Shown here piece after piece: positions 101 through 63,595 of a stretch of 64,000 bases of DNA. Position 1 is the first letter of the stretch. Each line of letters starts with the position of its first letter. Below the pieces are notes generated by a model that was not told where the DNA came from, made no database searches, and saw nothing but the letters and a program-made list of their open reading frames with translations. A program made the translations under genes and the position numbers. This DNA comes from Argopecten irradians (taxonomy: Eukaryota; Mollusca; Bivalvia; Pectinida; Pectinidae): NCBI RefSeq assembly GCF_041381155.1, contig NC_091147.1, positions 35,420,909 through 35,484,908 on the forward strand. The letters run 5' to 3'.

Positions 101-271
101 TTGATGGGGGGTTTTCCGCTTGGGGGTCTTGGGGCGCATGCTCAGTGACCTGTGCAAATGGTGTGCAAACCCGAAGCAGGGCATGTGACAGTCCGTCTGC
201 TCAATATGGCGGACTTCCTTGTTCCGGTGACACAAGTGAAACTCAGACCTGCACATTGAGCCCATGTCCGA
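101..271 (+). CDS. Gene A exon: TSP1 repeat
   Basis: 171-nt exon between ctacag and gtaagt. It starts DGGFSAWGSWGACSVTC, with the W-x-x-W C-mannosylation motif and the C-x-x-T-C O-fucosylation motif known from TSP1 domains, and ends in CTLSPCP. Six cysteines. The CANG (not CGGG) form resembles TSP1 exons in D (31843-32013) and E (54400-54570). Confidence 0.9.
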
Positions 272-2515
272 GTAAGTACATTATAACACACATAGATTGA
301 ATATACAATAAAACCCATTATATTGAGGTCCTTGGTAATTGGAAATATCTTCCAATCATTCAGATTTCAATTTAACCAAGCAGAAAAACAATGTAAATTT
401 GTGAACAAGGATTATGATTCATTTCAAATTGAATGATATTTCAACATTACTCATTAAACATTCACTGGGGTCCATTGTTTTTGTAATTTTCTTATAGACT
501 TGCTTCTTTTGAGTAAAATGTTACTACTCTTATGTTTAAATTAATTTGATATTTCTATTTTGATAGTTGATGGAGCATGGACAAATTGGGAAAATTGGAG
601 CACGTGCACCGTAACTTGCGGTGGAGGTACTTCCGGTAGATCACGTACTTGTACTAATCCCGCTCCCCAATATGGCGGGATTGATTGTACAGGCGCGGCG
701 TCTGAGACTAAAGACTGCAACACACAAACTTGTATCAGTATGTATATGTATTCTGGTAGTTATATTTGTATGAAATAGGTGAACTGTAGGCAACGTGCAA
801 ATATACATGTACATCGTTGCATTTTTTATCATAAATTTAGATAATATGTAATGTAATACAGGATTATCCATGTTTAATGCTAACAAAAGTTGTTAACTCG
901 TGAAAATTCCCCAATATTTGATTATATAACTATATCAAATTTTGAAGATGTTGAAGCAAAAAATCTAATAATATTATCTTTTCATTCAAATCATTTCATT
1001 AGATTATCTTTGCCATACCAGCATTAACACAACTTTTGATGCAAGATAAATGTACTAAGAAGGCAAACACAAAAGACATGTTTTCACTAATTCAATGCTT
1101 TGTTCAGTTGATGGCGCGTGGGGTGATTGGACCGCGTGGAGCCCGTGCACCGTTACCTGTGGGGGCGGGAGAAAGGCCCGGATAAGATCATGTGACAATC
1201 CTGTTCCGGCTAATGGAGGACTTTCCTGTCCCAGCGATTCTGCAGAGACTATTTATTGTAATACAAAATCGTGTGGTGTAGCTGCAGCTGGAGTATATCA
1301 GCAGGTAATCTTATTTCTGATACTAAATGTGTTATTGTCAGAAGTAAAGAAGAAAAAAAGATAATAAAATATATCTTTAGGATTTCCTTTTCTGAGAAGT
1401 CCATTTTCCCAATGACAGTAGATTTTTGGAAATAGGAATTAATACCAAAAAACTGGAATACAAATAGCATGGTGATGCGCTTGATTTTGAAATATTGTGA
1501 ATCAAATAAAGCTATTTTGACGCACATTATGGTTTTACCGGAATGTCACTGTTTTGACCACACACATCACAAAGTAAAGCACTATTTTCAAAATATTACT
1601 GAACAGTTTCAGTGCGTTTCTGTGGCATTTTTAGCGTTTGATTTTGCTTTGCTCGCCCCACCACGCACAAGCATAGAAACCAGAAATGGATGATGGTATG
1701 TATTATGTTTCTTTCATAGCAGGCAAAACACCTTACACATCACCTATTATAGTCTTATCCTTTTTTATGTTATAGCTTTGCCCAACTAACTGGTTTACAT
1801 GTGCGTCTGGTTCGATGAGCTGTATCGACGAGGCCTTCCATTGTGATTGTTCAAATGACTGTGACGACGGAAGTGATGAAACAACCGAATATGGCGGATG
1901 CAGTGCGGAAGTGGTGGCAGCTTGTCAAAATGGGGGCAATGGTTCGTTTTTTTGTCTCCTGTTTGCTTGATTGTTGTTTATTATTGTTTTTTTTATTATA
2001 AGTATTTTACCCCGTGATATGCACCATACTTTCCATACTGATGAATCAAAAAGAGCTTTTCAAATGTTAATCACCACCAAAAGTTAGCAACATTTTGAGA
2101 ATCATAATACGAATTTTCACAGCTTAGTTCATCAAACTTATGGCTTTCAATGCATTACTAATGAAAAAATGTCATTATAAAATTTTCACCAAGTTAGAGC
2201 ACATATAACTTGGAATACAATGCGCATCGCCATTGTTCCTTTAGGTCATCCGTATATTATATGTGTTCATTGTTTATGCCTTTGTGATCATTCGTCACCG
2301 TCCTTAATATGTAATTGTATACCTTTAATATGCTTATAGGCTTTCAACATAGAAGTAGATTTTAGCTTTGAAATATCCTACACTTACGCTTAAATAAGTG
2401 CAGTTAAAACAATAATGAGTTTGTCTTTTTTTCAGATATGGCTGTGGTTCCCATGTTTATGATGTCAGTTATCCTCCAAGCCTATGTTGTTACCGTATTG
2501 GCTTGCGATTTATAG
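101..2515 (+). CDS. Gene A (3' part): TSP1 repeats, LDLa-like domain, hydrophobic tail
   Basis: 3'-terminal part of a multi-exon gene whose 5' end lies left of the window. Five coding exons with GT-AG borders are visible: 101-271, 567-737 and 1108-1304 (one TSP1 each), 1776-1941 (LDLa-like) and 2436-2515 (hydrophobic tail, stop TAG). Phases fit: TSP1 exons are 1-1, the last TSP1 is 1-0, LDLa 0-1. The order is the same as in genes B, D and E, so the missing 5' part probably carries a signal peptide, an IgGFc-binding-type exon and the acidic metal-motif exons; that is inference. It converges tail-to-tail with gene B. Likely an extracellular or membrane-anchored adhesion or recognition protein; ligand unknown. 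Confidence 0.85.
567..737 (+). CDS. Gene A exon: TSP1 repeat
   Basis: 171-nt exon between tgatag and gtatgt. [20 protein letters not shown] followed by [13 protein letters not shown] and CNTQTCI; phase 1-1. It is closest to the penultimate TSP1 exons of B (5615-5785), D (30918-31088) and E (55195-55365), which sit at the same place in those genes. Confidence 0.92.
1108..1304 (+). CDS. Gene A exon: terminal TSP1 repeat
   Basis: 197-nt exon after gttcag and before gtaatc. [20 protein letters not shown], then CDNPVPANGGLSCPSDS, ending AAAGVYQQ. The longer C-terminal end with AGVYQQ and the 1-0 phase mark the last TSP1 of every gene in this family; it splices to the LDLa exon. Confidence 0.92.
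1776..1941 (+). CDS. Gene A exon: LDLa-like domain
   Basis: 166-nt exon after ttatag. LCPTNWFTCASGSMSCIDEA continues to [20 protein letters not shown]. The DCDDGSDE segment is the acidic calcium-binding core of LDL-receptor class A modules. Phase 0-1, as in the other genes. Confidence 0.9.
2436..2515 (+). CDS. Gene A last coding exon: hydrophobic C-terminal tail
   Basis: After tttttcag the frame reads DMAVVPMFMMSVILQAYVV, then TVLACDL and a TAG stop. A hydrophobic stretch ending almost at the C-terminus suggests a GPI-attachment signal or a tail anchor. No sequence similarity to the tails of C, D or E beyond hydrophobicity. Confidence 0.8.
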
Positions 2516-3646: not shown

Positions 3647-3726
3647 CTATATATAGCGATGGAACATTGCTGCAATTGACGTCAGTACACACAGTAAAAT
3701 TGTCATTGTTCCAATGTGGGCGAGAC
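3647..3726 (-). CDS. Gene B last coding exon: hydrophobic tail
   Basis: After tttacag the frame reads [20 protein letters not shown], then MFHRYI and a TAG stop. About 17 hydrophobic residues with a short basic end: tail anchor or GPI signal. Confidence 0.8.
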
Positions 3727-6700
3727 CTGTAAACAAAACAAAGAAATAAAACTTTAACTGAAATACTACTTAATTTCAATCAATATTTCTTGTTACGACA
3801 TTCTAAACATAATTGAATCATCCATTATCGTTCATATATACTTTTCATGGTACGAAGTGATAAGAATAGTGTTTTTATCTTTACCCAACTTGTAGACCTT
3901 GAAATATCAATACCACAAATTATGTACTGACGTTTTGTACCATCAAGATAATTACCTTCTGCACCACTTCCGCACGTCGATAGGAGAGCGGCGCTACATC
4001 CGGCATAACCGGCAGTTTCGTCACTTCCGTCATCACAATCGTTGGAACAGTCGCACTGGAATTGTTTGGCAATGCACTTCATTGATCCGGACTCACAAGT
4101 GAACCAACCATTTGGACAGAGCTATAAAACAAAATAACTACATTCATTTAACTTTAATTGTTATATAAAAACATAGATGACGACGCTTACAAAAATTCAT
4201 TGATAGGTATAAAACACAAAACGAGTTAACTCGCCACGGGTATTATGTAAGTTGAAGCAGAGTAGATTGGCACGACTGAAAGCGTTTTGTTCATGCATTA
4301 TTTTTGTTTTGGATGATAAAAGCAAAATTATTTGAAAATTATTTCTTTTTCAGTTAATACAATTCGGCTCCGATTTCAGTAAAGTAATATTTTAAACCTG
4401 TGGAAACTAGGATGAAGATAATATTCCTAAAACTTTAGTAAATATACATTATATCACATGACTGACGTTACAAGAATCTCTCTAAGTCAAAGGCTGGACG
4501 TATCATATTGCACAATAAAAGGATCATATATACTCTATGTTCCAGCATAGAAAGAAACCACGAAGAATCATATCTTGTATTAATTTCGGCCACACTATGG
4601 ACGTGATAATAGACACTTAGAAGACAAAGAATTATCTCCCTTGTGGGAAGGTATCGATTGTGACGTCATAATTTTGTGAAACTCACAACGTTTTCGCTGC
4701 AAATATGACTATGCTATCTCAAATACATGACGTCACAATCAATACCAACTCTCAAGCTACGCCCCTGAGAAGGGTTAGATAACTCTGTAATTTGCAAATA
4801 CAGAATAATTTTGTTATAATAAAAGACGATATATATTTTTGAACTATAAAATGACTAGTCTGTACATTGAGATTTTCTATCATTTTGCCTGTGAATCAGA
4901 AATGCTCTTTAGATAGAAGATACGTACCTGTTGGTAGACACCGGCTGCTGCCACAGGACATGATCTGACATTACAGTCACCCAGTACAGAGGAATCTCCG
5001 CTACAAGGGAGGCCACCATTGGCTGGCATTGGGTCGTCACAAACCCTTGATCGAGAACGTTTACCTCCGCCACAGGTCACTGTACACATACTCCAGGAGT
5101 TCCAGGCACCCCACGCTCCATCAACTGTCAAAGGAAAGAAAACATCCGGTTAGTCTGTTATATACTGATATAACCCCTGGTCATGAAATTTGGGGCATAT
5201 ACACTCACACCTGTCTATAAAGGGGCTTAGGAAAATGGTATCTCTAGCCAAATGGTCTTTATAAACGAGTAAAATTGGGTTAACATGACCATTTGGGACT
5301 CTAAGAAAGCGGTCTTATCTAATCAGCAAGTGGTCTGTATACAGAGGTGGTCATTAAGGTAGGTTTCACTAGAGTTGAAAATAAGGCCTTTCCCGCTATT
5401 AGTTAATTACTGCCGACAACGGCGGGAAATACACAACGTGTCAAAGAAACTAGATTTACTAATTTAATAACTTCGAGTACTCTACACAATTATCAAACTG
5501 TTCTATATTTACAATTTAAACATCAAAAATCATTTCGGAAACGTTATGGGACCTTAAATGAAGTTATTTCATGTTAAATTATCCGCAATGTTCTCTACAA
5601 TTTTTTGTACTTACTGATACAAACTTGGGTGTTACAGTCCTTGGTCTCCGAGTTTACACTGGGGCAGTTGGCTCCGCCGTATTGTGGCGGTGGGTTGGTA
5701 CAGGTACGGGTTCGTGTAGAAATACCACCACCGCAGGTCACTGTGCAGGTTCCCCAGCTTGACCATGTCGCCCACTCACCGTCAACTGAAATTGAAAGTT
5801 TTGTTTTTAAGCTCAAATATTTCGTTTGGGACAGATAGATTTTTAAACACATCTTTACGAAAGTTTACGGAAGGGCATTTTGCGATTTCGCGGGTTGTTG
5901 TTTTGGTAGGTGAAAACCCTTCGCGAGTTATATATATATATATGCATACTGAAATTCGTGTATCTAATTGTACCTAGATGACGAACTTTAGTTCCATTGA
6001 CAATATTTTGAGGTCAATATTGCGATGCTGTTTAACGAGCAAACGTAACCGGTTTATACGATACGTACTTATAAGTCCAGCAATGGAACTCCCTTTATAG
6101 CATTTTTAATATATATTGAAATATTGTTTATTGAAAACCTAGTCCATTTAATTCATTATTTTTTATTTCTTGATATGAAGAAAACGGATAATTTGAAGTT
6201 GTCGTTACGTTTATTATAACTGTTCGACTGTATCTAAGTAACAAGAACATCAAACGTCTTACTGTATTGTTGTTTATTTTCGTGCGTGTAAAATTTCGCG
6301 ATTTACTATTGACAATTTATAAACCCGCGTGAATATTAGCAATTATACAGTAATTGTGCTGACGATGTGGTCATAACTCACTTGGACAATGATGTGTGTT
6401 ACAGTCTCTGCTACTGGTATCCGCAGATCCACAGGAAGCGCCACCATATTGTGGACGTGGGTTTGTACAAGTACGAGTTCTGTATTGGACGCCACCTCCA
6501 CAGGTTACTGAGCAGGTGCCATAGCTTCCCCAGCTTGACCATTCGCCATCAACTACAAGAAACATATCAACAGTTACCCCAGCTAGACCATTCGCCATCA
6601 ACTACAAGAAACATATTAACAATTTTGATTTGGGCTTATCCTAATAAAATGAACCATGAACTCAATACTCATCATCAGCTACAAGAAACATATTTACAGT

Positions 6701-9700
6701 TTTGATTTGGGCTTATCCTTATACAATGAACTATGAACTCAACACTCATCGCTAACTACAAGAAACATATTTACAATTTTGAATTGGGCTTATCTTAATA
6801 AAAATGAACCATGAATTCAACACTCATCATCAGCTACAAGAAACATATCAACATTTTTGAATTTGCCTTCTCCTAATTACGCAGCAACTTTACTACTCAC
6901 AATAAACCACAAGAAACATCTCATTTTTTTAAATTGGGCTTATCCTATTAAAAAGAATCCTAACTTGACCACTCATCATCAAATACAAGAAATATATTAA
7001 CAGTTTTGATTTGTGCTCATCCTAATGTAATAACCCTGCTTGACCACTCAGCATTAAATACAAGGACAATACTGACAGTTTGAAATGTAAATACTTATAT
7101 GTGACAGCATATATGAACTGTAAAATGCATATTTCCATTCATATCATTTATTTCAAACAGTTACGGATTTAGAATTTTGAAATAATTAACATTTCCAGCT
7201 AAAAAATTGAATTATTGCATTCATGTAGAAATTGAGTTTTACTAAAATGGTAAGCCAATATATCAAGGCTACATTAACAGATGTTATAAAATAATGTTAT
7301 GGAAAAAATGATGACGTATACATACTTGGACAATGGTGAGTGTTACAGGTGGTGCTGCTGGTATCGGCGGATCCACATGAGGCTCCTCCATATTGTGGAC
7401 GAGGGTTGGTACATGAACGGGTTCTATATTTAACGCCACCTCCACAGGTCACTGAGCATGTGCCATAGTTACCCCAGCTTGTCCATGATCCATCGACTAG
7501 TAACAAAAATAACGGAAATGTTATATTTTATGTAAGCTTGTTTTGTTATATATGAAAACGATTACTTTACAGAGACATTCGTGTGAAGGCCAGTTACCGT
7601 GACCAACACGAAAAGAAATTAAGATATTTAGGGAAACATTTACTTCATTAATCAAAGAGATCATGTGTTAAATGTAATTCATTCGAACAAAGACTGTGTA
7701 TATCAAATAACTGCTTTCAAAATCTTCTTCATCTTATGCTCGTGTACGAGGGTTTAAAACGTAGTTCTTGATAATAAAAATATTATTTAAAAGATTCCAA
7801 GTAAAAGATAAACATTAAATGAATAGAATTGGTATGTTATGTAAATATTACGCACATAGCTGTTCTTGAAATAAAACGTGAAGCATTGCAGAAAAAATCT
7901 ATAGCAATAAAATATAATTCAAATTAATAATTCTTATACATGTAATTCAATCTAAACGCGGTAGATTCTTTGAGGGACTCGTTTCTATGAAATATTTGCG
8001 CCGTTGGTGCAGAGAATTTCAGTCTATATTACAATGGACAATCTAAATTGTTACTTTACGAGAAAATAATATCAAAATTCAAAACAACAAAAATGTTTAT
8101 TTTAATAAAGAATGTGCTATTAAGATATGTTTAGTTATTCATTTCCGTATTTGAGCAGAAGAAGCATAATCAGAGACATCAATAACAGTTGAAGAAGTGA
8201 CTAACTAGAGACACTGGTAGTGATATATCATACTTACTTGGACAATGGTGAGTGTTACATGTGGTGCTGCTGGTATCGGCGGATCCACATGAGGCCCCTC
8301 CATATTGTGGACGAGGGTTGGTACAGGAACGTGACCTATATTTAACGCCACCTCCACAGCTTACGGGACAAGACCCATAGTTTCCCCAGCTTGACCAAGA
8401 TCCATCAACTAGACAAAATATAACAACGAACTTTAAAATTATCTTGTAACGAGCATTTTGATTGGCTCAATATCTGTATAAAACGTAATTATAAAAATTA
8501 CATCGACGGTAGACAAATCGTCAATGATTGACTGTGGAAAAAAACGACGTAATGGTTTCATAGATTTCTTAGAATTAGATTGAACGATAAAAATATACCA
8601 TAATATTTTATGGTATGGAGATATGTGTAATGCAAATATAAGTGTGAACTCTAATCATAAACCGCTTTGCGAATTATTTAGAGTATACTGTGATTTTCGT
8701 GTTCTAGCTCCATAACATATAATCCTGAGGTAGACGACAAATATCTCTGACCTTGCAATGTATTTATGACGAACAGGTGTCTTCACTGATTACCCTAACC
8801 CTAGCCCTTACTTGGACAATTGTGAGTGTTACAGGTGGTGCTGCTGGTATCGGCGGATCCACATGAGGCTCCTCCATATTGTGGGCGGGGGTTGGTACAT
8901 GAACGGGATCTAGACATGGTACCTCCTCCACAAGTCACAGAGCAAGACCCATAGCTTCCCCAGCTTGCCCACGATCCATCAACTAAATAAAATATCACAA
9001 CGCACTTTGAAGTTTGCTTTTAACGAGCATTTTCATTGGCTCAATATATGTGGGAAAATGTAATTATATAAAAAATGAAGTCGACGGTTGTCAGATCGTC
9101 ATTGATTGACTATGTAAAAAACGGCGTAATGATTTCATAGATTTCATGGAATTAGATTGAATGATGAAGATTTACCTGAACATATATGATATTTTTTGAA
9201 GATATTTGTTATGCAAATACAAGTATGAACTCTAATAAGATTATACTATTATTTTCTCGTTATAGCACAATAACATATAAAATGTTCATTATGAGGTATA
9301 CGCCAAATATCTCTGACTTCTTAATTTATTTATGACGCTCGCAATGTATTTATGACGAACAGGTGCCTCCGCCTGTTAACCTAACCCTAGTCCCTTACTT
9401 GGACAGTTGTGAGTGTTGCATGTTGCGCTGCTGGTATCGGCGGAACCACATGAGGCACCTCCATATTGTGGACGAGGATTGGTACATGAACGGGATCTAG
9501 ACATGGTACCGCCTCCACATGTCACTGAGCAAGTCCCATAGCTTCCCCAGCTTGACCACGATCCATCAACTATATTTTGTTTTAAAACGGTCTTTAGATA
9601 CAAAAGTATGCCAAAATCTCCTTGATTGATTATTTATAACAAGAATTAATGATTCGACGAAAAAACTGCTAGAAAAATAGACTTTGGTGTCCCAAAACAG

Positions 9701-12700
9701 GAAGCAGTCTGTAGTATCATTCGTAGTATCTGTCATAACAATGTATTCTATCCTAGAACAATATCAGTTTCAATCGGCTGTGAAAACCAGGTGTTGAGAA
9801 AGAATTCATAAAATAAAAAACAGGCTTCCATTTCCCGAAACAAAGGTCATTTTGACGGATCTTTTTTTTTTTTTTTCGAAGGAACAAAAACGAGAAAACA
9901 ATATTTCAGCAATCTTAAATTTTCACTATCTTTCTTTAAGGGTGTAATTCAACCATATCTATTTTTTTGTGTATCTAATTTTCGCTATCATAGCAATGCT
10001 CATAAAATCCCGAAAATATCTTACTCTCAAAAATAAATGGCTTCACATAAAACTGATGATAGATTATAGGTTCTATGAGTGAGACTTACTTGGACAGGCA
10101 TTGGTGTTGCAAGACGCGCTGTCTCTGTTAGAGTTTGGACAGTCATTTCCGCCATGGGCTGGTGCGGGGTTTGTACATGTTCGGGTCCTCACCTTCTCGC
10201 CACCTCCACACGTTCGTGAACAGCCACCATAACCTCCCCAACTAGCCCATTGTCCGTGAACTAAAATAGTAGATTCACAATTCAATACATAAGACACATA
10301 TATTTGATCATACCGAACTCGATATACGTCCGTCATTACAAGGAAAAAAATCAAGATTAAAATAAATAATTATTACAACTTAAATTTTAAATATGTAATA
10401 TAATATTTTGTTTTCCTTATTCGTTGAAATTGAAATTTCTTAAATGTCCTTCGTAACCGAAATATTAGACTGACTTACGAAGCTTTCGGCTTATAGGTTA
10501 CCGTTTTTGCTATTGGCAAATCCAATTCGTTCCTGAATGAATATTCATATTGTTTTCCGGAGAGAAAGTATATACGGAGTTGATTTACCTGCACAACTTT
10601 GAGTATTACAAGCTGTTGAATCGCTGCCACTTCCGGCGCAGTCTCTGCCTCCATGTGCCCTGGCTGGATTGCTGCACGACCTTGACCTACTTTTTGTGCC
10701 TCCTCCACACGTTCTAGTACAAGATGTCCAAGATCCCCAGTTCGCCCAGTTGCCATCGACTGCACAAAAATAATGCGTTTATACTGTAAACGTACATACA
10801 TGTATTTAATCGCAAACGCGAAAAAATAATGATAATAAATAAATAAATAAATAATATAATATAAAATAAGATACGAAATGATATATGGATTAACGGTATT
10901 TTATCTTCAACGATATGAGTTAGCGCCATTCCATGTTTCCATTCGAGAAATACCCTTCAAAACTTGCGCTGTACAAGATTTAGTGCTTTCGAAAAAATCA
11001 AAAATAAAACTTCAGCTAAAATAGAGTTGCAGTATTTAATATAAGATGTGAAAACCCATTTAAAGAAATAATTAATTCATTCATTTATTTATATAGCTAA
11101 TTGGCAGCACAATTATAAAGCCGTGCTAGTTATCTATTTGCATCATATAGAAGACAAATAATTGGTTTATCGGCGAAAACGTTCTCTTTCGTTCAGCCCT
11201 ATTTTGAAACTAAAATCATTCACTTTTTTCTAGCGTTAAATCTTCTTTCTCATTGTATGTGAATTTACTTACTCGGGCATGCGCTCATCGTACAAGACTT
11301 TGTGTCAGAACTACTTCCGGAACAACTGTTTCCGCCATATTGGGGTGTTGGGCTATTGCAGGAACGAGTTCTGGTTTGAGTTCCACTGGCGCACGTAACG
11401 GAACATCCACCCCACCTTCCCCAGCTTGAGTATCCACCGTGAACTGTTATAATGTTAAAAATATAATAATATCAAGAATATAATACCATATTAACAATAT
11501 AATAATATTAAATTATTATTACAATATAATAATATTATATTGTCATTTAACTACTATTTGTGTCTTAAATTGTTTTCTTTTTCTTTCATCAACAAATGAA
11601 TATTAATATTAATGTGCAGGAGTAAATGCTATAACCAAAGACATGATTTCAAAATCCAATTACCATTTTCTATTAAACTTTTTAATGAGCAATATGTATA
11701 TTGATATTATACAAATATATATCATAATCATTCTTAATTCAAATCAAATTATTGACTATGTTTGTAAGCATTCCAATAAATCTATGAATTGATATGAACA
11801 CAGTGTAAGAGCACACGTTATTTGTCTTTCATATTGGAAAATATTCAAATTATATGCAAATTAGTAACATCATAAGGTGAAATATTTCGGTAAATATATA
11901 TTCCACAGACATTTTAAACCAATAACTGTCAGTGGTAATATATATGTTAATTAACACATTAAACTCAAAAATATTAAAATAAATCCACGTTTTTATGATA
12001 AATCAATAAACAGAACACACTTTTTAGAAAAAAAAATCCACACAAAGAGTTGAGAAAAAAAATCAGTAGATTTTTCTGAGAAGCAATTTATATTATTTTT
12101 GTCAATCAGGAGATACCTACGGCGGCGTATTAGGGCCACTACATATTTTTTTTATCTTGTACGTACAAATTAGTATCTTGTACGTACAAGTTAATATCTT
12201 GTACGTACAACTTAGTATCTTGTACGTACAACTTAGTATCTTGTACGTAAAAGTTAGTATCTTGTACGTACAAGTTAATATCTTGTACGTACAACTTAGT
12301 ATCTTGTACGTACAAGTTAGTATCTTGTACGTACAACTTAGTATCTTGTACGTACAACATAGTATCTTGTACGTACAACATAGTATCTTGTACGTACAAC
12401 TTAGTATCTTGTACGTACAACATAGTATCTTGTACGTACAAGTTAATACGCCGCCGTAATTCTGCGGTGATGAACAGCAGTTCAACTCAACTTGTATGTT
12501 CAAGACACTAAGTTGTACGTACAAGATACTACCTTGTACGTACAAGATACTACCTTGTACGTACAAGTACTATAAGTTGTACGTACAAGATGTACGTACA
12601 AGATGTATCTTGTACGTACAAGATACTATAAGTTGTACGTACAAGAAGACGTACAAGATATAACTTGTACGTACAAGATAAGTAACTTGTACGTACAAGA

Positions 12701-21169: not shown

Positions 21170-21243
21170 TCACAAAAATCCTCCATTCAACAGTAATAAA
21201 GCGGCACCAATAAAAAGGCCCAATAGTCCTGACTTAGGTATAC
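21170..21243 (-). CDS. Gene C last exon: hydrophobic tail
   Basis: GIPKSGLLGLFIGAALLLL, then NGGFL and TGA. A run of small and aliphatic residues with no basic tail is typical of a GPI-attachment signal. Similar to D, where a G-to-stop change removes the last four residues. Confidence 0.7.
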
Positions 21244-21673
21244 CTGAAATATATAAAGTAGCCACGGGGTACACTCAAGTGTAGTGAAAATTCCTGAAAA
21301 CGTATCATTGTATTGATTTCCTTGCTTTCCTTCTTGGGATTCAATTCTTTGAAAATTTCTTGTTTATCGTTTGATAACGAGTATTATTTCATGTTTTCAT
21401 AAAACTCCAGAGTTTAATACTGCATGATAGCAATATGTGTAGATAATAATAATCAAAAGAATGAACTAATCATTTCATTATTTATTTTGTTGATATGTAT
21501 GTAAATAAATGATTATAATGATTATAGTGTGTCGTCATATGAAAACTTATAATAATTAAGATAGCCAGTAAAATACCTTAATTACTATATTATTGACTAT
21601 GTTTCGTATGTTGCAAAAGCAGGTCATTAATCAAATTATATTAAGACTTTTATTAGGCATAAGATAAATGTAC

Positions 21674-21839
21674 CTTCAGCTCCACTCTGACAAGTCGACA
21701 ACAGAGCGGCGCTACATCCGGCATAACCGGATGTTTCGTCACTTCCGTCATCACAGTCGTTCGCGCAATCGCATTTGAACTCTTTGTTGATGCACTTCAT
21801 GGCCCCAGACTCGTATGTAAACCATCCGGTTGGGCAGAG
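21674..21839 (-). pseudogene. Gene C exon: LDLa-like, one cysteine lost
   Basis: LCPTGWFTYESGAMKCINKE, then [21 protein letters not shown] reads WFTCES here; in C a TGC codon is TAC. The loss breaks one predicted disulphide. Confidence 0.8.
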
Positions 21840-22137
21840 CTGAGGGTAAAAATGTATAAACACTTAATTATAATGAATAAAGGTAAATAAGATAACAATA
21901 AAACACAATCAATATAAATATAAATCCATATTGAATACCAGAAACGGTCCTCAAAAGTTAAGAGGTAAATTTAACACCAAGGAGCATATATAAAAAACTC
22001 ACAATATAGTTGCTATCAAAAATGGATAACTAAATTTAGAATTGAACGGATACTACAAATAGCATATGATAGTTACTGTATTGGAACCAGGGGTTACATA
22101 ATGGTAACCGTCCTCTTAAATTTAGTAAGATAAGTAC

Positions 22138-48261: not shown

Positions 48262-51200
48262 GTAACGTGCAATATTACTGTTTATTATATTATTAGTAAT
48301 ATTATTTTAATTTATTTTTAAAAGGCATTCCTTTATCTATCATTTTCTATTTTGAAATGGTTCGATTTTTTTGTAAACAGTATTTATCATTATACGAAAC
48401 TGTATATCTTAATTTATTTCTTCAAAAATTATCTCTTTGAAATGAATCACAATTTAGATATCGTAATACTGTTTTATTTTTATTGTTAATTATTGCGTTA
48501 TTAATCATTTTTTTATTTTGTTTGATTCCGAGGTTTGGCACCATATAAACACTATTTATCATGATACAAACTAGTCTAATTAAATCTATTGAGTTTCTTT
48601 AAGATAATTATGTATGATATTAACGGATTTCTAAAACAAGACAATAAAGGGATATTAATGTAGGAATATTTTATAATATGAATATAGAAAAATATGGAAC
48701 AAAATGAGTGAAATGAGTATCTAATTGTGTTTTTCAAACAATAATTTTTAATTTATAGGTTTAAACAACTAAATAAAAAAAAAATCATCAAAAAATAATA
48801 ACGTCTTTTATTTTTGATAAAACATTTTTCAGAAACAATTTCATTTAATTTTTTTGTACAATTTAAGTAACATATAACTGGAAATGTAAGTGTCGCTTCA
48901 CATAAGATATTTCAGAAAACAATTTTACAGTTATAGATTTTGATTTTCATCCATGTAAATTAAATGAAGGGAAGAAAAATCGTTTAATCTTAACCTAAAA
49001 ACAGATACAAAACTCATCTTACTATATTCAAAACACTTTATGATTTTGATTATATAGGGTCTACTTTCACAAACGTTCCTCAACTTAAAATTAAAAGCAT
49101 TACAGAGGTGAAGGATTTTTTTTTTAATAAGAAACATTTCATAAAAATATATAATATGCATTCTTTATAGATAATTTCAAGTTACGGGATTACTTAAATT
49201 CAAGAAAATTCCGCAAAACTGGGTTCTGATTAATGCATGTACAAATAGGATAGAAAGGTTCAAATTATTATACTTTCACGAATAGATATAAATTAGATGA
49301 TAAGTATTGAAATACAATTTAGGATTATGTGACGAATGTATTTATATGACTTATAATATTCAATAAATAAATAATATGACACTAACCTCTGTAGCAAATA
49401 TAGACGTAACATATATTGGAAGTCGACCTCTAAATTGAAATATAATATATCTAGAACGAATATTATATTATAAATTACAATTGTGTAAGATATCTGTTTT
49501 TATTTCTTTATCCCCTACAGGAATTTGGACACTTTTGTGTCTGCTTAGCCAATTTGGATGTATTCATGGTAAGTATACACATCAAAATCATCACTTGATA
49601 AGAATTTATAAAGAATGGCATGCTCCTTAATTTAAGATATTATCCAATTAAAAAGACAGTGAAATACTTTCAGATATATATAATGTTAGTTTATCTTTTT
49701 TTAACATCAAAATTTAAACTATCAAATTTTCTTACTCGAAATATATCTAATACCATTTCTTCTTGAAAAGGTGCACCCGACAATCGAGGGACAGAGTTTA
49801 TCATCGGATACATGGAAAACATCGCTGTTTCTATGAACGTCGAACTTTTCGTCACAACGATGAGGACGACGACAGTCAATGTTAAAGTGACCGCTCCGAG
49901 GTACAGCGCAGCTGGAATCAATGAAGCATTTTCCGTCACGGCTGGAACTGTCAAACAGCTCTTCTTTACCCCATCTATACGTCTTGCTGGAAACGAAATG
50001 AGCTCTAAAGCTGTCTGGATCACTGCTGATGATGAGGTGGTTATATATGGCGTTAACAAGGAGACTTACTCCTGTGACGCCTTCCTTGGACTACCCACTG
50101 ACGTCCTTGGTACGGAATATTACGCCATCACATATTACCCACCGTACTACCAATGTGAGCTGCTGATTGTTGGCGTGAACGACAGTACGACCGTGAATAT
50201 CAGAGTTGGGGATGCTATTGGCAGTCGGTACATATCATGGGGAGGAAGGAACTACTATAGCGGAAATACACTGACCGTCACGATGAACAGATTTGACACA
50301 TTCCAGTTAGTTACATACGGCGATCTGTCTGGAACCTACATTGAATCATCAAAGCCTGTCTCTGTATTCAGCGGAAATCGGAAGACAAATATCGGTTTAG
50401 GAGGCAGTTCTGATCACTTGGTTGAACATCTAACGAACGTTGACACTTGGGGAAAGCGCTTCGTTACTGTTCCTATACCAAGGAGAACTGTCGGTGATTA
50501 CTTCAAGTTCATAGCCAGTGAGAGTAGCACAACTGTAACTATCAGCGGAGGATATTCCAATACATTTACACTTGCAAGTCCAGGAACCGTTGTTCAAAAG
50601 TCAATTTCATCCAGTGCTTATTGTCTTGTACAGGCAGACAAGCCGATATTGCTTGTTCAATTCTGTCTAAGTCAGCAGTCATCGAATGAACAATCTGATC
50701 CCATGATGATGATCATTCCTCCGGTGGAACAGTTCGGAGCCGACTACACTTTCACCACACCGAAGTACTCTCTTGGGTCTTATAGCAACTACTTCATGTT
50801 CATCGTCAAGGAATCAGAAAAATCAGGACTTCGCGTCGATGGCAATGCATTCCCCTCTAATACTGTATACAATACTATCAGTGGTACCGATTATGTAGGG
50901 GGTTACATCAGCGTGTCTGAGGGGTCCCACACTGTACGTCACACATCTCCTATCTCCATCTTTGGTGGATATCTGTACGGGCAGGCCAACTTCGAGACCT
51001 ACGGGTTTACCACAGGCATGCGTATGGCCGGCATTAACACGGTAATCATTGCTGAATATCTACATTTTTCTATATTGTATCGGATAATTATAAGACTGCA
51101 TTTTAAAATGCATCTCTTTTATACGATTTCAAGTATATTCAAAACAACACTTAAAGTAATGACAGAAGCATAATACGTCAAGTGTAATAGTATTTCTTTT

Positions 51201-54200
51201 ATTCGTAGTATAAATTTGTGTAATATATTTACGACTGAATATCGGTGTACTTTAAAACTGTTTTGTAGCCAATTCACCAATGATATTTCTTAATTGATTG
51301 GTCTAATCTTTGTTTTAAAAGAGCCTAAATGTGTCTTCAAGGGTTAGTGATTCAAGCATTATCATAACAATCGTCCTACGAAACATAGAATTCACTTGTT
51401 TGAGTTTCTTATTTGAGTCTATTGCTGAGTAAATGTAAAATAAGATGTATATGTCTTAAGTTGGCAATTTGTTTAAACAGACACTTAAGCTAGCTGCACA
51501 TAAATGATGGAGTGAAAGATATAAAATTACTATTGTAGAGATTAAAGGACAAAATACGGAGATCATTTTTTCTCGGATAATTCAGCCAATAAATGTTTGA
51601 TATTTTCCAAATATTAGACTCCCATTTTGTGGTCTCAGAATCACACATCAGTTGCCGTATGTTCTGTTATTGAAATATGACAAACTCTGAAATTCGAGAA
51701 CTATAGAACGCTAAGTACGGCATTTAACATAAAATGTTAAAAATATCTTGTATTTGCTTCAACAGATTTGCGTACCGACTGCCACTGTGGTTGGTGATGG
51801 TATAGACAATGACTGTGATGGGCTGATTGATGAGGAACTGTGTACTACAGAAAACCAAGGACGAGGTGAGTGCTATTCATTTGACCAGTGGATCACAAAA
51901 ATGATGATGTCATTGAAATGTGATGACCGCTCTCATCCTAACAACCATCAATTTAATAATCGTTCTAATTTCCATTTTCGAGACTCTTGTAACAACAAAC
52001 AAATTTATTTTATTTTTTTTTTTTTTTTTGTAGACATAAAGATCGTGATTTGTATATAGGGATTGAATGTATTTTTCTTATTTTCTTTGCGGCTATGAAA
52101 AGCAGAAACTATCTACATATTCCGTGGAGCACGTTAGCGTTAGCGCTCCTCGGAAGATATGTAGATAGCTTCTGCTATTCATAGCCGCTATGAAAATTAG
52201 AAAAATACATTCAATCCAAATATTAATATAACAATTATTTATTAAAAAAAAAATATTGAAATATTATTATATTTAAAATCATGACACCCATTTACGACAA
52301 GAAACGAGATTAATCGAACCGCTGGCTGACAAAGTCGTTCCTCAACGTTGCGTTTTCAAGTTTCCGCCTTCCGGTCGTACTATTTTTGTAAATGACAATT
52401 GATAAACAAGAAATATAGTCAAAATAAGTTTCGATTGGCTTATTACAGTAACCTTTAGTTGATTATATATCAAGAAACAACACATTAGACATTACACATT
52501 AAAATATTGCGGGGAATCGTCGTATTCATAGTGTTATCATAGGCAAATATTTGTTTTCGTCAGTTGGTTGATTCATATAGTGACGAAACACTCAGAATGT
52601 AAATATACATTGTTTAAGCTAGATAAATATGTGTTTATACTAATAAATATACACATTAGTATAAATAAGAACAGGTTTAAATCTTTAAAATGGGAATGTA
52701 AAACGAAATTGATATATTCATAGTCACAAAAGTTATTCACTTACCGTTGATACTCAGCACTTACCACCCCATTCTTAATAATTTATTTAAATAGATAAAA
52801 TGTTAATTTTCATTTCGTCTTATGTTTCTCGCCGTTGTCCTAATTACGGCGAGTCGGTTGATTATCACTGCGCCAGATGGCAAAACAGCCAAATGAATCT
52901 TCATTGTTAACATATTGTACGCAGGAATCTTCCATTTGGTTGGTGTTAAACATCCCCTTAGGCCATTGGTATACATTTTCGTATATTATTAATCCTTTTA
53001 AGAAACTTTTAATTTTTGTTTCGCAAAGGTAGCGGGCCTTTAATTAGTTAATCATATCTGATAATAATCGTAATACTATTGATATGGATGTTATTTGTGA
53101 CGATTGCTAACATAGTCTACACTTACTTATTATACTTATTTGTAAATTAATCAAGTCATCAAAGATTTTACTAATGGCTGGATAATAAACCAAAATGCTG
53201 AAATTTGTAATTTGTAATTCTTGTAGATGACGATGGTGACGGAACTGCAGAAGAGGACTGTGCAACACCTCCTCCAAGTATGCAAAGCCACATTTTAAAG
53301 GCCTTTTTTCGCTATGCGTCTTACCTCATTTACCGTATATATTAAGGGAACATGAATTTAAATTGAATAAAGATATACTAGAGATGAAACAAAAGAAGTA
53401 AAGTTATATCAACATAAGTCGTAATACGCCATGTTACGGTGAAATAAAGCAACATATTCAATTATTTCAACTCTTGCTGGATATTGTGAAATTAATATTT
53501 GGTTTGAAATTTACAATAGCTCGCACTATACGCTAACCTTTCAAGGAAAATAATAAATGCAGAAAAAAAAATATTTTAGCTAGAACGAACAATGTTAGTA
53601 ATAGTATTGCACATATAAGAACATGGACATTTTATGATTAAATTTTTTTTTTTTCAATTATTAATTTTTTATCACTTCATATTTATCCAACTACATGTAT
53701 TGTCCTTTAATCAATTTAGTTGATGGCGGTTGGAGTTCATATGGAGCATACGGCGCATGCTCACTAACATGTCGATCAACAACAGGGGGCGCTACTACTG
53801 GAATAAAGACTCAGACCAGATATTGTAACAATCCTGAACCTAAATATGACGGAAGACAGTGTTCCGGAAGTGCGACAAACACTGCTTCCTGTACTCCATC
53901 AACCTATTGTCCAGGTAGGTATTTATCATAACTTAATGGCGATGTTTACACTCAACTTTTATTTTTCAACTCTATGGTTCCCATAAACAAATATATTACG
54001 TTCATACTTCTAAAACTAAAAAAAATAAATAACTTTCATTGAATTTAAAACGTTTGAAACAATCGCTTACCGCATTATAAATAAAATAATCTATATTGAG
54101 TGAGAGCGATATCAAAACTATATTGAGATATGTTTATTTTGAAATAGATATATTTTTCGCAGACCTGGTTTATGTTTATAATGTATTTTGATATTTTTAT

Positions 54201-57200
54201 CTCAATTCACAGAAGATACCTATATTTTTAACATTGTTATCTGTTTTTCATTTATTAATTCAAAATATATTTCAATTGCCTCGATATTTTTGTGATATAC
54301 AAATGTATCGCTTCAATAATGAGATCATATAATTGCCATACTGCATATTGATGGTGTACTCTCTCAAGTGTTATTTTAAATATTATTTTCTATTTCTAGT
54401 TCATGGTGGATGGGGTTCCTGGGGCTCCTATGGGTCTTGTTCCGTGACCTGTGCCTCTGGCACGAGGACGAGGACTCGGTCCTGCAATAACCCTAGCCCA
54501 CTATACAACGGTAACGACTGTAGTGGAAGTGACACGTCCACAACCAGCTGTACATTGAGTCCTTGTCCAAGTACGTATGATGGTGTTTACTGATACTGTT
54601 TGATATCAAATATTCGTGGGAACTTTTTCTCGTGGTTAACAGCTTTTGAATCATATCGTGGCTAGAAATATTCGTGGTTTACAGATGGAACAGCACAAGT
54701 AACAAAACACGGATTAATCACATTTCGTTGTTTTTTATTCGTGGTTCTATAGCAACAAGAAAAATCAACGAAATGTTTTACATAACGAAAATATATACTT
54801 GTAAAAAGAAGAAAGATATAGAATTTATTATTTTCTTTTGAAACAGTAATTTGAAAAGAAAACTCATAAACATGGTTTCAAGCACATTTTCGTTGAATTT
54901 TCATTCGTCGCAAACTGTATTTTATTTTTCGTATTTTCTCTGAGCAGTGTAAGTCATGGACATTTAGTACAAGTAACTTAACGGTAATTTCTTTCAATTA
55001 ATTATATTTTTTTCTAAATAACGTTATATAGAATCATTATTAATTCCTATTAAAAAAGGGATATGTTCAAAATTATCAAATGTATTTTCATCATGATATT
55101 ATAATTATTTTCTAGAATAAAACGTATTCAATGCAACAACTCAATTATCATGATTGAAAAAGCTGATTGCCAATGTTTGATAATTCGTTTCTAGTTGACG
55201 GCGCATGGTCGAACTGGAACGCGTGGAGCACGTGCACAGTCACGTGCGGAGGCGGAACTACCACCAGGAGTCGCTCTTGTACTAATCCTAGTCCAGCACA
55301 TGGCGGTGCCCAGTGTGCAGGCAATGACACAGCTACCATAGAATGTAATACTGCCGTGTGTATAAGTAAGTTATTGTTTTTTTGCGGGATTAATGTTACA
55401 CAATTGTATGATGCATGTATCACAGAGGAAAACCTTTCCTGGTGATCAGTATTTGTGCACTTCAATTTCTAACAGTAATTAGTTGAATATATTTGCACAT
55501 CGTTAATGTGAACTAATGTACAAACTAATGTTTGTCAAAGTTAATACAAACATTTTTTTTTATTTTGCAAAAAAAAAAAAAAAAAAAAAGGTGATAGCGA
55601 TAACGATGTGCATGTGTTGTATGGTTTTGTACATTTTGTATATAGCTATTCAGCAACAATGTGTAATCACTTATTTTACATTAACAGTTGATGGGGAGTG
55701 GGCTGCATGGAATGCATGGGGTACATGTACGTTATCTTGTGGAAATGGAACTCGATCCAGAATCCGAAGCTGTTCTGATCCTCTCCCTCTTAATGGCGGA
55801 CTCCAATGCCCCGGAGCGTCTAGTGATTTCAGCGAATGTAACACACAAGACTGCCCCGTTCGTCAGGCCGGGGTTTACCATCAGGTAAACTAGCAATATG
55901 TAAATTTTGAAATATTTTATAATTTTTTTATACAAATAATTCTCAGCAAATACATGACTAAAACAAATTGATTATTTAAAAATGATCAAATTTTGTTTTC
56001 AAATCTTCGCACGAAAGCGTAGTATTAATAGTAATAAACCAATTATTTTTATTAAAACAAACTACAGTTAAGTCTGTCTATACAACCAACCCAACAGGCA
56101 AAGAAAAGTGGTTTTCATAGCCAAGTGGTCTTTGTACACATGCTTACTCAAAAAAATGTCGTTAAAACATGTTTTAAACGAAATGATTACTTGTCTTTCC
56201 GTTCAAGAACAAAACTTTTTGAATAGTTTTATATAGAAATTACATGTAAATACATAAAACATACATTTACAACATGTATTTAAGGTCCACGCGTCGAATG
56301 CATGGGTTCGTAACGTGCAGTCGATCGCGATCGAGCAACTTGACCGCTAATTATATATAAATTGCCGTTGTTTGAAGAATTGGTCTCGCTCTTCACCACG
56401 TTTCAACGGACCCATGTGTGTTCGCCGACACGTATTTGGCGAGTCTTCAGTGCATTCGCCATGCATGATGTTGCAGTTTGTTAGGGAAATTCCACTTTTT
56501 ATGTGCCTACGCATGCGTACTAGATTGTTTTGGCTCTGGGACGGAACTACTGATTTCCCCATTTCCGAAGAGGGGTTTTCTATCGTTTTTGAAAAGACAT
56601 GGAAATGTTGGGCATTTTTTTATTGGCGAATATTTTCATAAGGATAAATGCTCTACTATTCAGCAAAGTTTGGTACTTTATGACGAGATTTTTTTCACCT
56701 CAAAAAATAACGGGGCTTTAACATAAAACTTAGAAAACAATAAAATCATCGTCGATTATATGTTATAAAACTTTATTTGTTTTCGGACTTATAGAGAATA
56801 TTCCTTCTTTTCAGCTCTGTCCCACAAATTGGTTTACCTGTGAGAGTGGCCAGATTACCTGTATACAATTCCCGTTCGTGTGCGATTGTGGAAACGATTG
56901 TGACGACGGAAGTGACGAAACAACGGGATACGCTGGATGTAGCGCTGATCTTCTGGCTTCCTGTGGAAACGGTGCCGAGAGTAAGTAATCGCTAGTGACA
57001 TAGTGACATTCAATAATGTATATTTCGTCTTTGCATATTAAAGCGTTACCTCCCTTGCGGGAAGGTATCGATTGTGACGTCATCGTTTTATGGGAAACAT
57101 TTACGTCGTTTTCGCTGAAAAGTATGATGTTACGCTCGCAAACACATAACGTCACAATCGGTACCTACCCATAAGGGTAGATAACTCTGTAATATGCAAA

Positions 57201-57940
57201 TCCGGAATAAAAATAAAAATATGAGGTATTAAGATGATAAATAATAATCATTGGATAATTATAGCTAAAAGCCTTTTAATTTATACAAATGGTGGGAATA
57301 GCTTTTCACTTTGAATAAATTCATAATAGGTATTTAGTATGTATACTGAATAAAAATACTGTTTGAATAAATTCATAATAGATATTTAGTATGTATACTG
57401 AATAAAAATACTGTTTGAATAAATTCATAATAGGTATTTAGTATGTATACTGAATAAAAATACTGTTTGAATAAATTCATAATAGGTATTTAGTATGTAT
57501 ACTGAATAAAAATACTGTTTGAATAAATTCATAATAGGTATTTAGTATGTATACTGAATCAAAATACTGTTTGAATAAATTCATAATAGGTATTTAGTAT
57601 GTATACTGAATAAAAATACTGTTTGAATAAATTCATAATAGGTATTTAGTATGTATACTGAATAAAAATACTGTTTGAATAAATTCATAATAGGTATTTA
57701 GTATGTATACTGAATAAAAATACTGTTTGAATAAATTCATAATAGGTATTTAGTATGTATACTGAATAAAAATACTGTTTGAATAAATTCATAATAGGTA
57801 TTTAGTATGTATACTGAATAAAAATCCTTCTCTATCATTTATACGATTTTTTGTTTTTCATTTTTACAACAGGTATCCTCCGAATGTCATATGGGTTGGT
57901 TTTATTGGGAATATCATTGTTTTGGCTTCTACGACGATGA
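48243..57940 (+). CDS. Gene E: signal peptide, IgGFc-binding-type domain, MopE-like motifs, 4 TSP1, LDLa-like, hydrophobic tail
   Basis: Complete gene, 11 coding exons, 2457 nt, 818 residues in frame: 48243-48261, 49521-49568, 49771-51041, 51766-51865, 53227-53277, TSP1 at 53720-53914, 54400-54570, 55195-55365 and 55688-55884, LDLa 56815-56980, tail 57873-57940. The predicted start MARSTLGIWTLLCLLSQFGC makes a good signal peptide but is unrelated to D and F. The start exon is longer (19 nt) and there is no TATA/CCAAT arrangement like theirs, so E probably has its own promoter. The IgGFc domain is identical in protein to F. Introns carry a palindromic element (52060-52217), a family-1 MITE and a 52-bp tandem repeat. 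Confidence 0.86.
49521..49568 (+). CDS. Gene E exon 2: signal peptide core
   Basis: 48 nt after cctacag: GIWTLLCLLSQFGCIH, donor gtaagt. The hydrophobic core with a small-residue end fits signal cleavage near the G-APDN junction. Confidence 0.75.
49771..51041 (+). CDS. Gene E exon: IgGFc-binding-protein N-terminal type domain
   Basis: 1271-nt exon, [20 protein letters not shown] to GMRMAGINT, phase 1-0. The flank before it (attttcttcttg-type tail of intron 2) matches D; the exon's later part and the intron after it match F. Residues VPIPRRTVGDYF differ from [12 protein letters not shown] in B, C and D. Confidence 0.93.
51766..51865 (+). CDS. Gene E exon: MopE-like metal-binding motif 1
   Basis: 100 nt: [19 protein letters not shown], then [14 protein letters not shown]; donor gtgagt. 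Confidence 0.9.
52060..52217. mobile_element. MITE-like palindromic element (family 4)
   Basis: Ends GGATTGAATGTATTTTTCTT and 'aaaaatacattcaatcc', with 'gcggctatgaaaagcagaa' facing 'ttctgctattcatagccgc' and 'ctatctacatatt' facing 'atatgtagatag'. The loop is about 25 bp. Nearly a perfect hairpin; it lies in the intron between the two acidic exons of gene E. Confidence 0.85.
53227..53277 (+). CDS. Gene E exon: acidic metal-binding motif 2
   Basis: 51 nt, phase 1-1: DDDGDGTAEEDCATPPP. Acceptor ttgtag, donor gtatgc. Confidence 0.88.
53720..53914 (+). CDS. Gene E exon: TSP1 repeat (1st, long form)
   Basis: 195 nt. DGGWSSYGAYGACSLTCRST, then TGGATTGIKTQTRYCNNPEP and CTPSTYCP. The second tryptophan of W-x-x-W is tyrosine here. 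Confidence 0.92.
54400..54570 (+). CDS. Gene E exon: TSP1 repeat (2nd)
   Basis: [45 protein letters not shown]. Confidence 0.93.
55195..55365 (+). CDS. Gene E exon: TSP1 repeat (3rd)
   Basis: [45 protein letters not shown]. Penultimate type. Confidence 0.93.
55688..55884 (+). CDS. Gene E exon: terminal TSP1 repeat (4th)
   Basis: 197 nt, phase 1-0. DGEWAAWNAWGTCTLSCGNG, CSDPLPLNGGLQCPGASS, ending RQAGVYHQ. Confidence 0.93.
56815..56980 (+). CDS. Gene E exon: LDLa-like domain
   Basis: 166 nt after ttttcag. LCPTNWFTCESGQITCIQFP, then [20 protein letters not shown] and CGNGAE. Intact. Confidence 0.92.
57021..57209. mobile_element. MITE-like inverted-repeat element (family 1)
   Basis: Left 'tatttcgtctttgcatatta' and right 'taatatgcaaatccggaata' are inverted. 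Inside, 'gggaaggtatcgattgtgac' faces 'gtcacaatcggtacctaccc'. In the last intron of gene E. Confidence 0.8.
57310..57828. repeat. 52-bp tandem repeat, about 10 copies
   Basis: Unit begins 'tgtttgaataaattcataat' and ends 'gaataaaaatac'. Copies are almost identical (one 'gaatcaaaatac' near 57557, 'agatattt' for 'aggtattt' in the second), so the array is young. In the last intron of gene E. Confidence 0.93.
57873..57940 (+). CDS. Gene E last exon: hydrophobic tail
   Basis: SILRMSYGLVLLGISLFWLL then RR and TGA. A 14-residue hydrophobic run ending in two arginines: a minimal membrane anchor or, less well, a GPI signal. Confidence 0.8.
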
Positions 57941-61061: not shown

Positions 61062-61065
61062 ATGG
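61062..61065 (+). CDS. Gene F exon 1: 4-nt coding start (ATGG)
   Basis: 'gattcacactATGG' then gtatgt; the same junction as in C and D. Confidence 0.7.
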
Positions 61066-63595
61066 GTATGTTGTATTTCATGATATTATTATTTGTATTA
61101 CATGTTTTGTTACTGCGTTTAGTGTAAAAGTTCTTATATACTTGAAAACCAATAACGAGTTAAGATATATGAATGTTAGAACTTGATGGGATTTAAATTT
61201 TTAAAATTTCAACTTAAGATATTCTAACTCCAACAAAATGAGTAATAAGGTATTAATTGACAAATGTAGTTTTTCACTATCAAAAACAGGAGCAGACAAT
61301 TTAGTATTTTTCTTCAGTTACAAAAGTTACTTACTTTACACCATTACCACCATTGAAAAGTTTGAGCTTCAAATCTTACTTCAAGTTAAAATATGAAAAA
61401 TAATTATTTGCATCCCGAAAAAATTCCATGGCACTATATCCTATATAGAATGATGTACTGAATGCGCGTGCACCAAAGAAAAAATAACTTATTTATATTT
61501 TTTTTTGTGTGTTAATTAGACATGCATAGACACGATCAAACACCAATTATCAATTATGATGAATATCATTTATGATCTGTTGGCATCTTATCTTGTCATA
61601 CTAAGTCCTATAAGAAAGAAATGTATATTTCTTTCATTATTGATATCATCTGTAATTTGAACACGAATCTTGTCAGTTTTTATTATACCTTCATATCTTC
61701 AGTGTTGTAAACCAACTTTCGTGTGCGATTAGCTTTCGTGAATGTAATGATCGAAGTTAATTCGCGAAAGTTTATCTCCTAGTTTGAACATCGTTATAAT
61801 TTATATCGATAGGAATTTTTATTCAAATTTTAAACCTTCGAACGATATTCTTCGCTAAATCACAAAATTTAGTAGCTGCGAAAGAAAGTTCAAATCCAAC
61901 TAACAATAGATCAGAATGCCGCAGTAATATGTTTTATGACACGCGAGTGGTAATAATATTTTCGTTTTTATCCAGCGGCCGTAGCTATTCGGCTGGTGTC
62001 ACTACTGTGTGTCATAGCTTCCGTTCAAGGTAAGAACTATGCTAAAAAAGAATAGTTGAACAAAGCAATTAAGTTATTAGACAATAGGTATTAAAGATAC
62101 CATTCATTGTGAAAACAGCGACGTGATATGTATGCATTTATCATATTCGTTTGGTATTTTTGTAAAATTGACCAATAAGATAAATTTTAGAAAAGAAATA
62201 AAAGGAAAACCAGAAAAGCGAAAACATAATCTTTCAGTTATCCAATGGAAATGATATCATATATCAATATTTTAATTACTAAATGTTCTTACTCAAAATG
62301 TATTTTAAACAATTTCTTGAAAAGGTGCGCCCGACAATCGCGGTACGGAATTTATCATAGGATACATGGAGAACATCGCTGTTTCTATGAACGTCGAACT
62401 TTTCGTCACAACGATGAGGACGACGACAGTCAATGTTAAGGTGACCGCTCCGAGGTACAGCGCAGCTGGAATCAATGAAGCCTTCTCCGTCACGGCTGGA
62501 ACTGTCAAACAGCTCTTCTTTACCCCATCTATACGTCTTGCTGGGAACGAAATGAGCTCTAAAGCTGTCTGGATCACTGCTGATGATGAGGTGGTTATAT
62601 ATGGCGTTAACAAGGAGACTTACTCCTGTGACGCCTTCCTTGGACTACCCACTGACGTCCTTGGTACGGAATATTACGCCATCACATATTACCCACCGTA
62701 CTACCAATGTGAGCTGCTGATTGTTGGCGTGAACGACAGTACAACCGTGAATATCAGAGTTGGGGATGCTATTGGCAGTCGGTACATATCATGGGGAGGA
62801 AGGAACTACTATAGCGGAAATACACTGACCGTCACGATGAACAGATTTGACACATTCCAGTTAGTTACATACGGCGATCTGTCTGGAACCTACATTGAAT
62901 CATCAAAGCCTGTCTCTGTATTCAGCGGAAATCGGAAGACAAATATCGGTTTAGGAGGCAGTTCTGATCACTTGGTTGAACATCTAACGAACGTTGACAC
63001 TTGGGGAAAGCGCTTCGTTACTGTTCCTATACCAAGGAGAACTGTCGGTGATTACTTCAAGTTCATAGCCAGTGAGAGTAGCACAACTGTAACTATCAGC
63101 GGAGGATATTCCAATACATTTACACTTGCAAGTCCAGGAACCGTTGTTCAGAAGTCAATTTCATCCAGTGCTTATTGTCTTGTACAGGCAGACAAGCCGA
63201 TATTGCTTGTTCAATTCTGTCTAAGTCAGCAGTCATCGAATGAACAATCTGATCCCATGATGATGATCATTCCTCCTGTGGAACAGTTCGGAGCCGACTA
63301 CACTTTCACCACACCAAAGTACTCTCTTGGGTCTTATAGCAACTACTTCATGTTCATCGTCAAGGAATCAGAAAAATCAGGACTTCGCGTCGATGGCAAT
63401 GCATTCCCCTCTAATACTGTATACAATACTATCAGTGGTACCGATTATGTAGGGGGTTACATCAGCGTGTCTGAGGGGTCCCACACTGTACGTCACACAT
63501 CTCCTATCTCCATCTTTGGTGGATATCTGTACGGGCAGGCCAACTTCGAGACCTACGGGTTTACCACAGGCATGCGTATGGCCGGCATTAACACG
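61062..63595 (+). CDS. Gene F (5' part): signal peptide and IgGFc-binding-type domain
   Basis: First three coding exons (61062-61065, 61976-62029, 62325-63595) of a gene that continues past the right edge. Signal peptide MAAVAIRLVSLLCVIASVQG, then [13 protein letters not shown]. The promoter, start exon, signal exon and intron 1 resemble C and D, while the IgGFc exon from about 62375 on and the following intron are nearly identical to E (about a dozen differences in 1.6 kb; none changes the domain's protein). MopE, TSP1 and LDLa exons are expected downstream by analogy. Confidence 0.88.
61976..62029 (+). CDS. Gene F exon 2: signal peptide core
   Basis: 54 nt after tatccag: AAVAIRLVSLLCVIASVQ, donor gtaaga. 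Clear paralogue of C and D exon 2. Confidence 0.82.
62325..63595 (+). CDS. Gene F exon: IgGFc-binding-protein N-terminal type domain
   Basis: 1271-nt exon, phase 1-0. The first 50 or so bases differ from E at about six positions (e.g. CGCGGTACGGAA against CGAGGGACAGAG); beyond them the two are almost identical into the intron. Confidence 0.93.

Follow-up and report, generated by a model that had tools for sequence, protein, structure and literature searches.

Six neighbouring genes of one family

The window, by which we mean the whole stretch of 64,000 nucleotides analysed here (Argopecten irradians, contig NC_091147.1, positions 35,420,909 to 35,484,908), holds six neighbouring members of one gene family, designated A to F. 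Genes A, E and F are on the forward strand (+), and B, C and D are on the reverse strand (-). The original prediction of a six-gene family holds as far as the number of loci is concerned, but only B, D and E are complete (E without its first exon), while C is a pseudogene. The window ends truncate the two outer genes, so that the 5' part of A and the 3' part of F lie outside. The features are as follows.

101..2515, +, gene A, 3' part: TSP1 exons 101-271, 567-737 and 1108-1304; LDLa 1776-1941; hydrophobic tail 2436-2515
3647..17349, -, gene B, 18 exons, 1219 amino acids, 11 TSP1; identical to P0002
Gene B, 5' exons, -: exon 1 17349-17346; signal 16887-16831; head 16309-15039; MopE1 14805-14706; MopE2 13946-13896
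Gene B, 3' exons, -: TSP1 exons from 13273 down to 4928; LDLa 4121-3956; tail 3726-3647
15039..16309, -, gene B head (IgGFc_binding) exon: PF17517, 3.8e-71
21183..27613, -, gene C, pseudogene with four TSP1 and a tail: ATG at 27613; signal about 26948-26895; LDLa 21839-21674
26590-25425, -, gene C head, 5'-truncated
28883..40489, -, gene D, 14 exons, 990 amino acids, seven TSP1; identical to P0001
Gene D, 5' exons, -: exon 1 40489-40486; signal 39044-38994; head 38555-37285; MopE1 37023-36924; MopE2 36075-36025
Gene D, 3' exons, -: TSP1 exons from 35538 down to 30110; LDLa 29500-29335; tail 28944-28883
37285..38555, -, gene D head exon: PF17517 match; AlphaFold2 model
49521..57940, +, gene E, four TSP1: probable signal exon 49521-49568; head 49771-51041; MopE1 51766-51865; MopE2 53227-53277
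Gene E, 3' exons, +: TSP1 53720-53914, 54400-54570, 55195-55365 and 55688-55884; LDLa 56815-56980; tail 57873-57940 with stop
49771..51041, +, gene E head exon: DNA identity 98.8% to F and 93.9% to D
61062..63595, +, gene F, 5' part: exon 1 61062-61065; signal 61976-62029; head 62325-63595

The spliced frames of B and D are open, with GT-AG at every intron and one phase pattern common to both genes: exon 1 0-1, signal 1-1, head 1-0, MopE1 0-1 and MopE2 1-1, then TSP1 1-1, last TSP1 1-0 and LDLa 0-1 on the 3' side. Spliced D and spliced B equal the Argopecten irradians database proteins P0001 and P0002 letter for letter. Since both models were made from the DNA ahead of the database search, this match provides an independent check of the splicing. 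The predicted domain order, exon phases and TSP1 counts (B 11, D 7, E 4, C 4, and at least 3 in A, where three lie within the window) were borne out by Pfam and by splicing. The head exon of B and D measures 1271 bp, compared to 4-197 bp for all their other exons.

Gene E has the same exons and gives an open frame of 813 amino acids, given an assumed first exon ending in ATG-G; one pattern search did not find that exon. No exact database equal of E was named among the best 120 of 293 matches listed, and E was aligned against P0001, P0002, P0004, P0005 and P0006. P0005 is a further Argopecten member, with a tail unlike those of A, B, D and E. Decay of gene C is apparent from a head exon without its 5' part, a Cys to Tyr change in the LDLa module and phases out of register, and no MopE motif was found between its head and first TSP1.

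Tandem repeats occupy some of the introns. In the last intron of gene E, a 52-bp unit is repeated about 10 times with 99% similarity between copies (57310-57825), and an intron of gene D contains about eight copies of a 29-bp unit (32262-32506). In gene B, a minisatellite with 21-, 42- and 63-bp units (12153-12955) carries several open frames that might mislead gene finders, and degenerate repeats of 49- and 77-bp units lie between TSP1 exons 8 and 9 (6528-7026), the first of them overlapping the start of exon 9.

Domains and the extent of the head module

The five head ORFs matched PF17517 (IgGFc_binding) with 221.8 to 240.2 bits (3.8e-71 to 1.6e-65; cut-off 25.6). When the whole D protein was searched, the Pfam matches above cut-off were IgGFc_binding (E 1.8e-65), one LDLa and seven stretches of TSP1. 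LDLa (PF00057) reached 29.2 bits in D, and 35.9 (D) and 34.3 (A) with the pieces alone (cut-off 24.1). MopE (PF11617) stayed below its gathering cut-off of 27, with 15.7 bits in whole D and 21.6 in the piece alone. At E values up to 1, only IgGFc, TSP1-type, one LDLa and weak MopE matches were listed for D.

The MopE-like stretch had been taken for a separate linker. Collinear alignments to bacterial and animal proteins assign it to the head, and it appears to be the end of a single module of about 475 residues, larger than the Pfam domain. The Methylomicrobium protein P0118 is collinear with D residues 1-492 (37% identity) and the Chloroflexota protein P0106 with D 4-468 (38% identity), both through the MopE-like end. 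P0095 from amphioxus, P0079 from chiton and P0082 from scallop likewise align to D through this end (40-43%, 464-507 columns). What accompanies the module differs: P0118 has PKD and P0106 has TSP3 and Kelch domains, and P0095, P0079 and P0082, unlike the family, show no TSP1 or LDLa motif and have 14-17 residues after a hydrophobic span. The MopE-type motif was present in 100 of 119 animal proteins, and in 25 of 115 that are either bacterial or metagenomic and unnamed; three rows whose origin is unknown were omitted. These proteins are drawn from two sets of 293 and 464 matches, of which the best 120 each were taken, and for this reason our counts of MopE motifs and of architectures are no census.

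In an unrooted head tree of 90 rows picked from 237, with several long animal branches, one branch parts animals from the others, except for P0217. This sponge protein (Corticium) pairs with P0160 inside the bacterial part of the tree. We limit our claim to the co-occurrence of the head and its MopE-like end, which the alignments indicate for both animals and bacteria. That the N-terminal domain of FCGBP has homologous N-terminal counterparts in some bacterial proteins is already stated in the available text of a review (PMC9354016).

The AlphaFold2 model of the D head, obtained with 53 sequences, is of high confidence (pLDDT 95.0, pTM 0.93) and mostly beta. No whole-head match was found among the solved structures listed, which does not amount to evidence of a new fold. 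The acidic MopE-like end is possibly calcium-binding.

The head exon evolves in concert

The new finding here is that the head exon evolves in concert. Between D and E, DNA identity is 93.9% in the head, 89% in MopE1 and 76.5% in MopE2, and drops to 65.6, 64.3 and 62.4% in the first, penultimate and last TSP1 exons, 66.3% in LDLa and 41% in the tails. The synonymous divergence shows the same contrast, with dS of 0.20 in the head versus 1.66, 1.75 and 3.2 in the first, penultimate and last TSP1 exons, and saturation in LDLa. Therefore, purifying selection alone is insufficient to account for the pattern. The same is seen between D and P0005, with 98.8% identity in the head and 59% in the C-terminal part.

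The trees of the two parts conflict accordingly. The head tree joins D, E and P0005 of Argopecten (support 100/98), whereas the C-terminal tree places E and P0005 with P0004 of Pecten maximus (98/98), and B and D with P0006 of Mizuhopecten (99/98). In reciprocal AU tests with 11 rows, on groups picked after inspecting earlier trees, each part rejected the grouping of the other (p 1.5e-5 and 1.4e-11). The order of the B, P0004 and P0006 heads in the tree has no resolution. The B head, with dS of about 1.1 to the other heads, is not homogenised with them and is older. Across five exons, C resembles D at 82-96%, but the 300-nt intron flanks beside the head reach only 50-54%, and so C may be a duplicate or partly converted.

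The heads of E and F differ by 15 bases and by zero amino acids. Their near-identity extends past the head (51042-51446 and 63596-64000; 396 of 406 columns) to the window end. One could suppose from this that E and F are a single locus assembled twice. We consider it improbable, given that the E and F upstream flanks are unlike, that of F being closer to D and C than to E; neither the D/E nor the D/P0005 results depend on F in any case.

Selection on the head and the stalk

The head dN/dS was 0.07-0.12 in the five pairs of B, D, E and F other than E/F, and 0.11-0.21 in those TSP1 exons for which it could be computed. The TSP1 exons are thus also under purifying selection. Low dN/dS is no distinguishing mark of the head, since these exons are conserved too; what is special to the head is homogenisation alone.

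This bears on the proposal that the family consists of innate immune receptors with a microbe-binding head, the tandem genes forming a repertoire. The cluster does hold a pseudogene and variable copies, and a Manila clam IgGFc-binding protein, likened to the family by name, responds to LPS and PGN, although the gene went down in that study, as far as the available part of the paper reports (PMC7430831). In a receptor repertoire one would expect the binding end to become diverse, and here most heads are kept alike instead. Homogenised heads with low dN/dS therefore argue against a diversifying repertoire, with the caveat that whole-exon averages may hide a few selected sites, and we regard this proposal as rather unlikely. 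The microbe or self recognition put forward in the original prediction thus draws no support from the evolution of the head. Head conservation would also fit a fixed microbial ligand. The homogenised, conserved heads suggest one shared head partner.

The homogenised head may, however, be a neutral by-product. In this version, conversion between tandem copies reaches only the head because it is the one long exon. The lengths of the exons speak for it, as do the 300-nt intron flanks of the heads, which are mostly unalike save downstream in E/F. The D/E conversion tract does enter the upstream intron by about 44 bases, which is not decisive. Low dN/dS is neutral in this respect, and the long-exon version accounts for the identity pattern equally well as the shared-function reading. 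We therefore treat it as a serious possibility, if somewhat short of an even one.

Hydrophobic C-termini

A MopE-type motif together with at least two TSP1 and an LDLa was found in 27 of the 237 proteins, D and B included, and 25 of the 27 have them in the family order. A hydrophobic C-terminal segment with 0-8 residues past the core is present in 23 of these 27. By simple hydropathy, two residues follow the core in D, five in B, two in E and 12 in A. For comparison, eight scallop relatives picked for their membrane span (P0052, P0054, P0055, P0056, P0065, P0070, P0081 and P0082) have 11-23 residues past the core, by a measure that covers the last 35 residues only. Judged by hydropathy, the family tails look like putative GPI signals. 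Certain observations go against this reading: the tail of E ends in two arginines, A has its 12 residues, and four of the 27 (P0017, P0019, P0021 and P0024, of which two are named as partial) have no hydrophobic end. The architecture, the signal peptides and the hydrophobic C-termini together support the predicted family of surface or secreted proteins with a variable stalk.

Distribution and database names

Among the matches listed, 26 of the 27 motif-bearing proteins carry bivalve names, the organism name of P0017 being truncated, and the IgGFc-MopE-TSP1-LDLa architecture is recurrent across bivalves rather than unique to the scallop cluster. P0003, P0004, P0006, P0007 and P0038 have the head, MopE-type motif, TSP1, LDLa and hydrophobic tail as in the cluster, and differ in TSP1 number and tail sequence. 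In the gastropod Babylonia, a variant carries an extra VWA domain. The brachiopod Lingula has IgGFc with TSP1, which means that TSP1 stalks on this head also occur outside molluscs. That this was not a described family is correct insofar as no description of the architecture or its concerted evolution was found in the open-licence literature, judged by titles and abstract openings, and the available portions of PMC7333891, PMC5908917 and PMC10206775 held nothing decisive for the scallop family. It is incorrect insofar as the family recurs in the databases under misfitting names: SCO-spondin-like, hemicentin-1, adt-1-like and IgGFc-binding protein-like.

SCO-spondin has VWD domains and a cystine knot beside TSP1 and LDLa, hemicentin has immunoglobulin repeats and VWA, and ADAMTS and adt-1 proteins have a metalloprotease domain. 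The names were assigned by database sources, but no VWD, immunoglobulin or metalloprotease domain was listed for D (E up to 1) or among the precomputed domains of D and B. The domain content of D contradicts a SCO-spondin, hemicentin or ADAMTS identity, and that the cluster encodes such proteins is hardly credible.

With FCGBP, the scallop family has the PF17517 head in common; the VWD, C8 and TIL families are absent from the D listing (E up to 1), and D instead has a TSP1 stalk, LDLa and a hydrophobic tail. Molluscs are not known to have IgG. The H domain of FCGBP comprises 450 residues, according to the accessible part of the review (PMC9354016).

A model for the function of the family

The reading we prefer, with a probability of roughly 0.45, is that the cluster encodes tandem, probably cell-surface proteins which would present a shared head at varied distances from the membrane, and whose heads would organise an adhesive or mucus coat. 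Each protein has a signal peptide, a mostly beta head of about 475 residues with its acidic MopE-like end, and beneath it a stalk of 4 to 11 TSP1, one LDLa and a short hydrophobic C-terminus that would direct GPI anchoring. Stalk length would set the distance of the common head from the membrane. Gene conversion and purifying selection keep the heads alike, and divergence falls on stalk length and the C-terminal part. The head may bind one common partner, for example a glycan, a mucin-type glycoprotein or another head, and may thereby organise a coat, adhesive or mucous, over epithelia or larvae.

The proteins could also be a secreted part of a larval foot adhesive, mucus or shell matrix, the tail being removed or serving as a processing aid. 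The leads for this come from oysters, in the available text of three papers. Genes selected at the pediveliger stage include a "hemicentin-1" that carries three TSP1 and one LDLR domain, and also six IgGFc-binding proteins; these candidate relatives are a lead for the preferred model as well (PMC6337334). A "SCO-spondin", also a candidate relative by name, is high in one settlement-stage group as well as during metamorphosis induced by epinephrine, and was discussed as a neural factor (PMC7525975). In larvae under elevated CO2, three SCO-spondin-like, two coadhesin-like and one adt-1-like gene were lower (PMC9498863, Table 1). The oyster proteins are likened to the family by name or domains only, however, and the C-terminal hydrophobic segment is kept in 23 of the 27 motif-bearing proteins, so that we find a purely secreted role unlikely, much as we do the immune one.

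A bolder reading is that the head with its acidic end is a single ancient adhesin module that bacteria and animals have in common and that serves in scallops as an interchangeable coupler: genes with stalks of different length would carry the same head because heads pair with one another or with a single common partner, the match being maintained by gene conversion. We hold this to be doubtful, more so than either the secreted or the immune role.

Our findings give a coherent identity to bivalve proteins databased as SCO-spondin, hemicentin or ADAMTS, ill-fitting names that may mislead expression studies. They also provide a testable case of a modular, probable surface protein in which the head, a module found in bacteria too, is homogenised across genes that diverge in stalk and C-terminal part.
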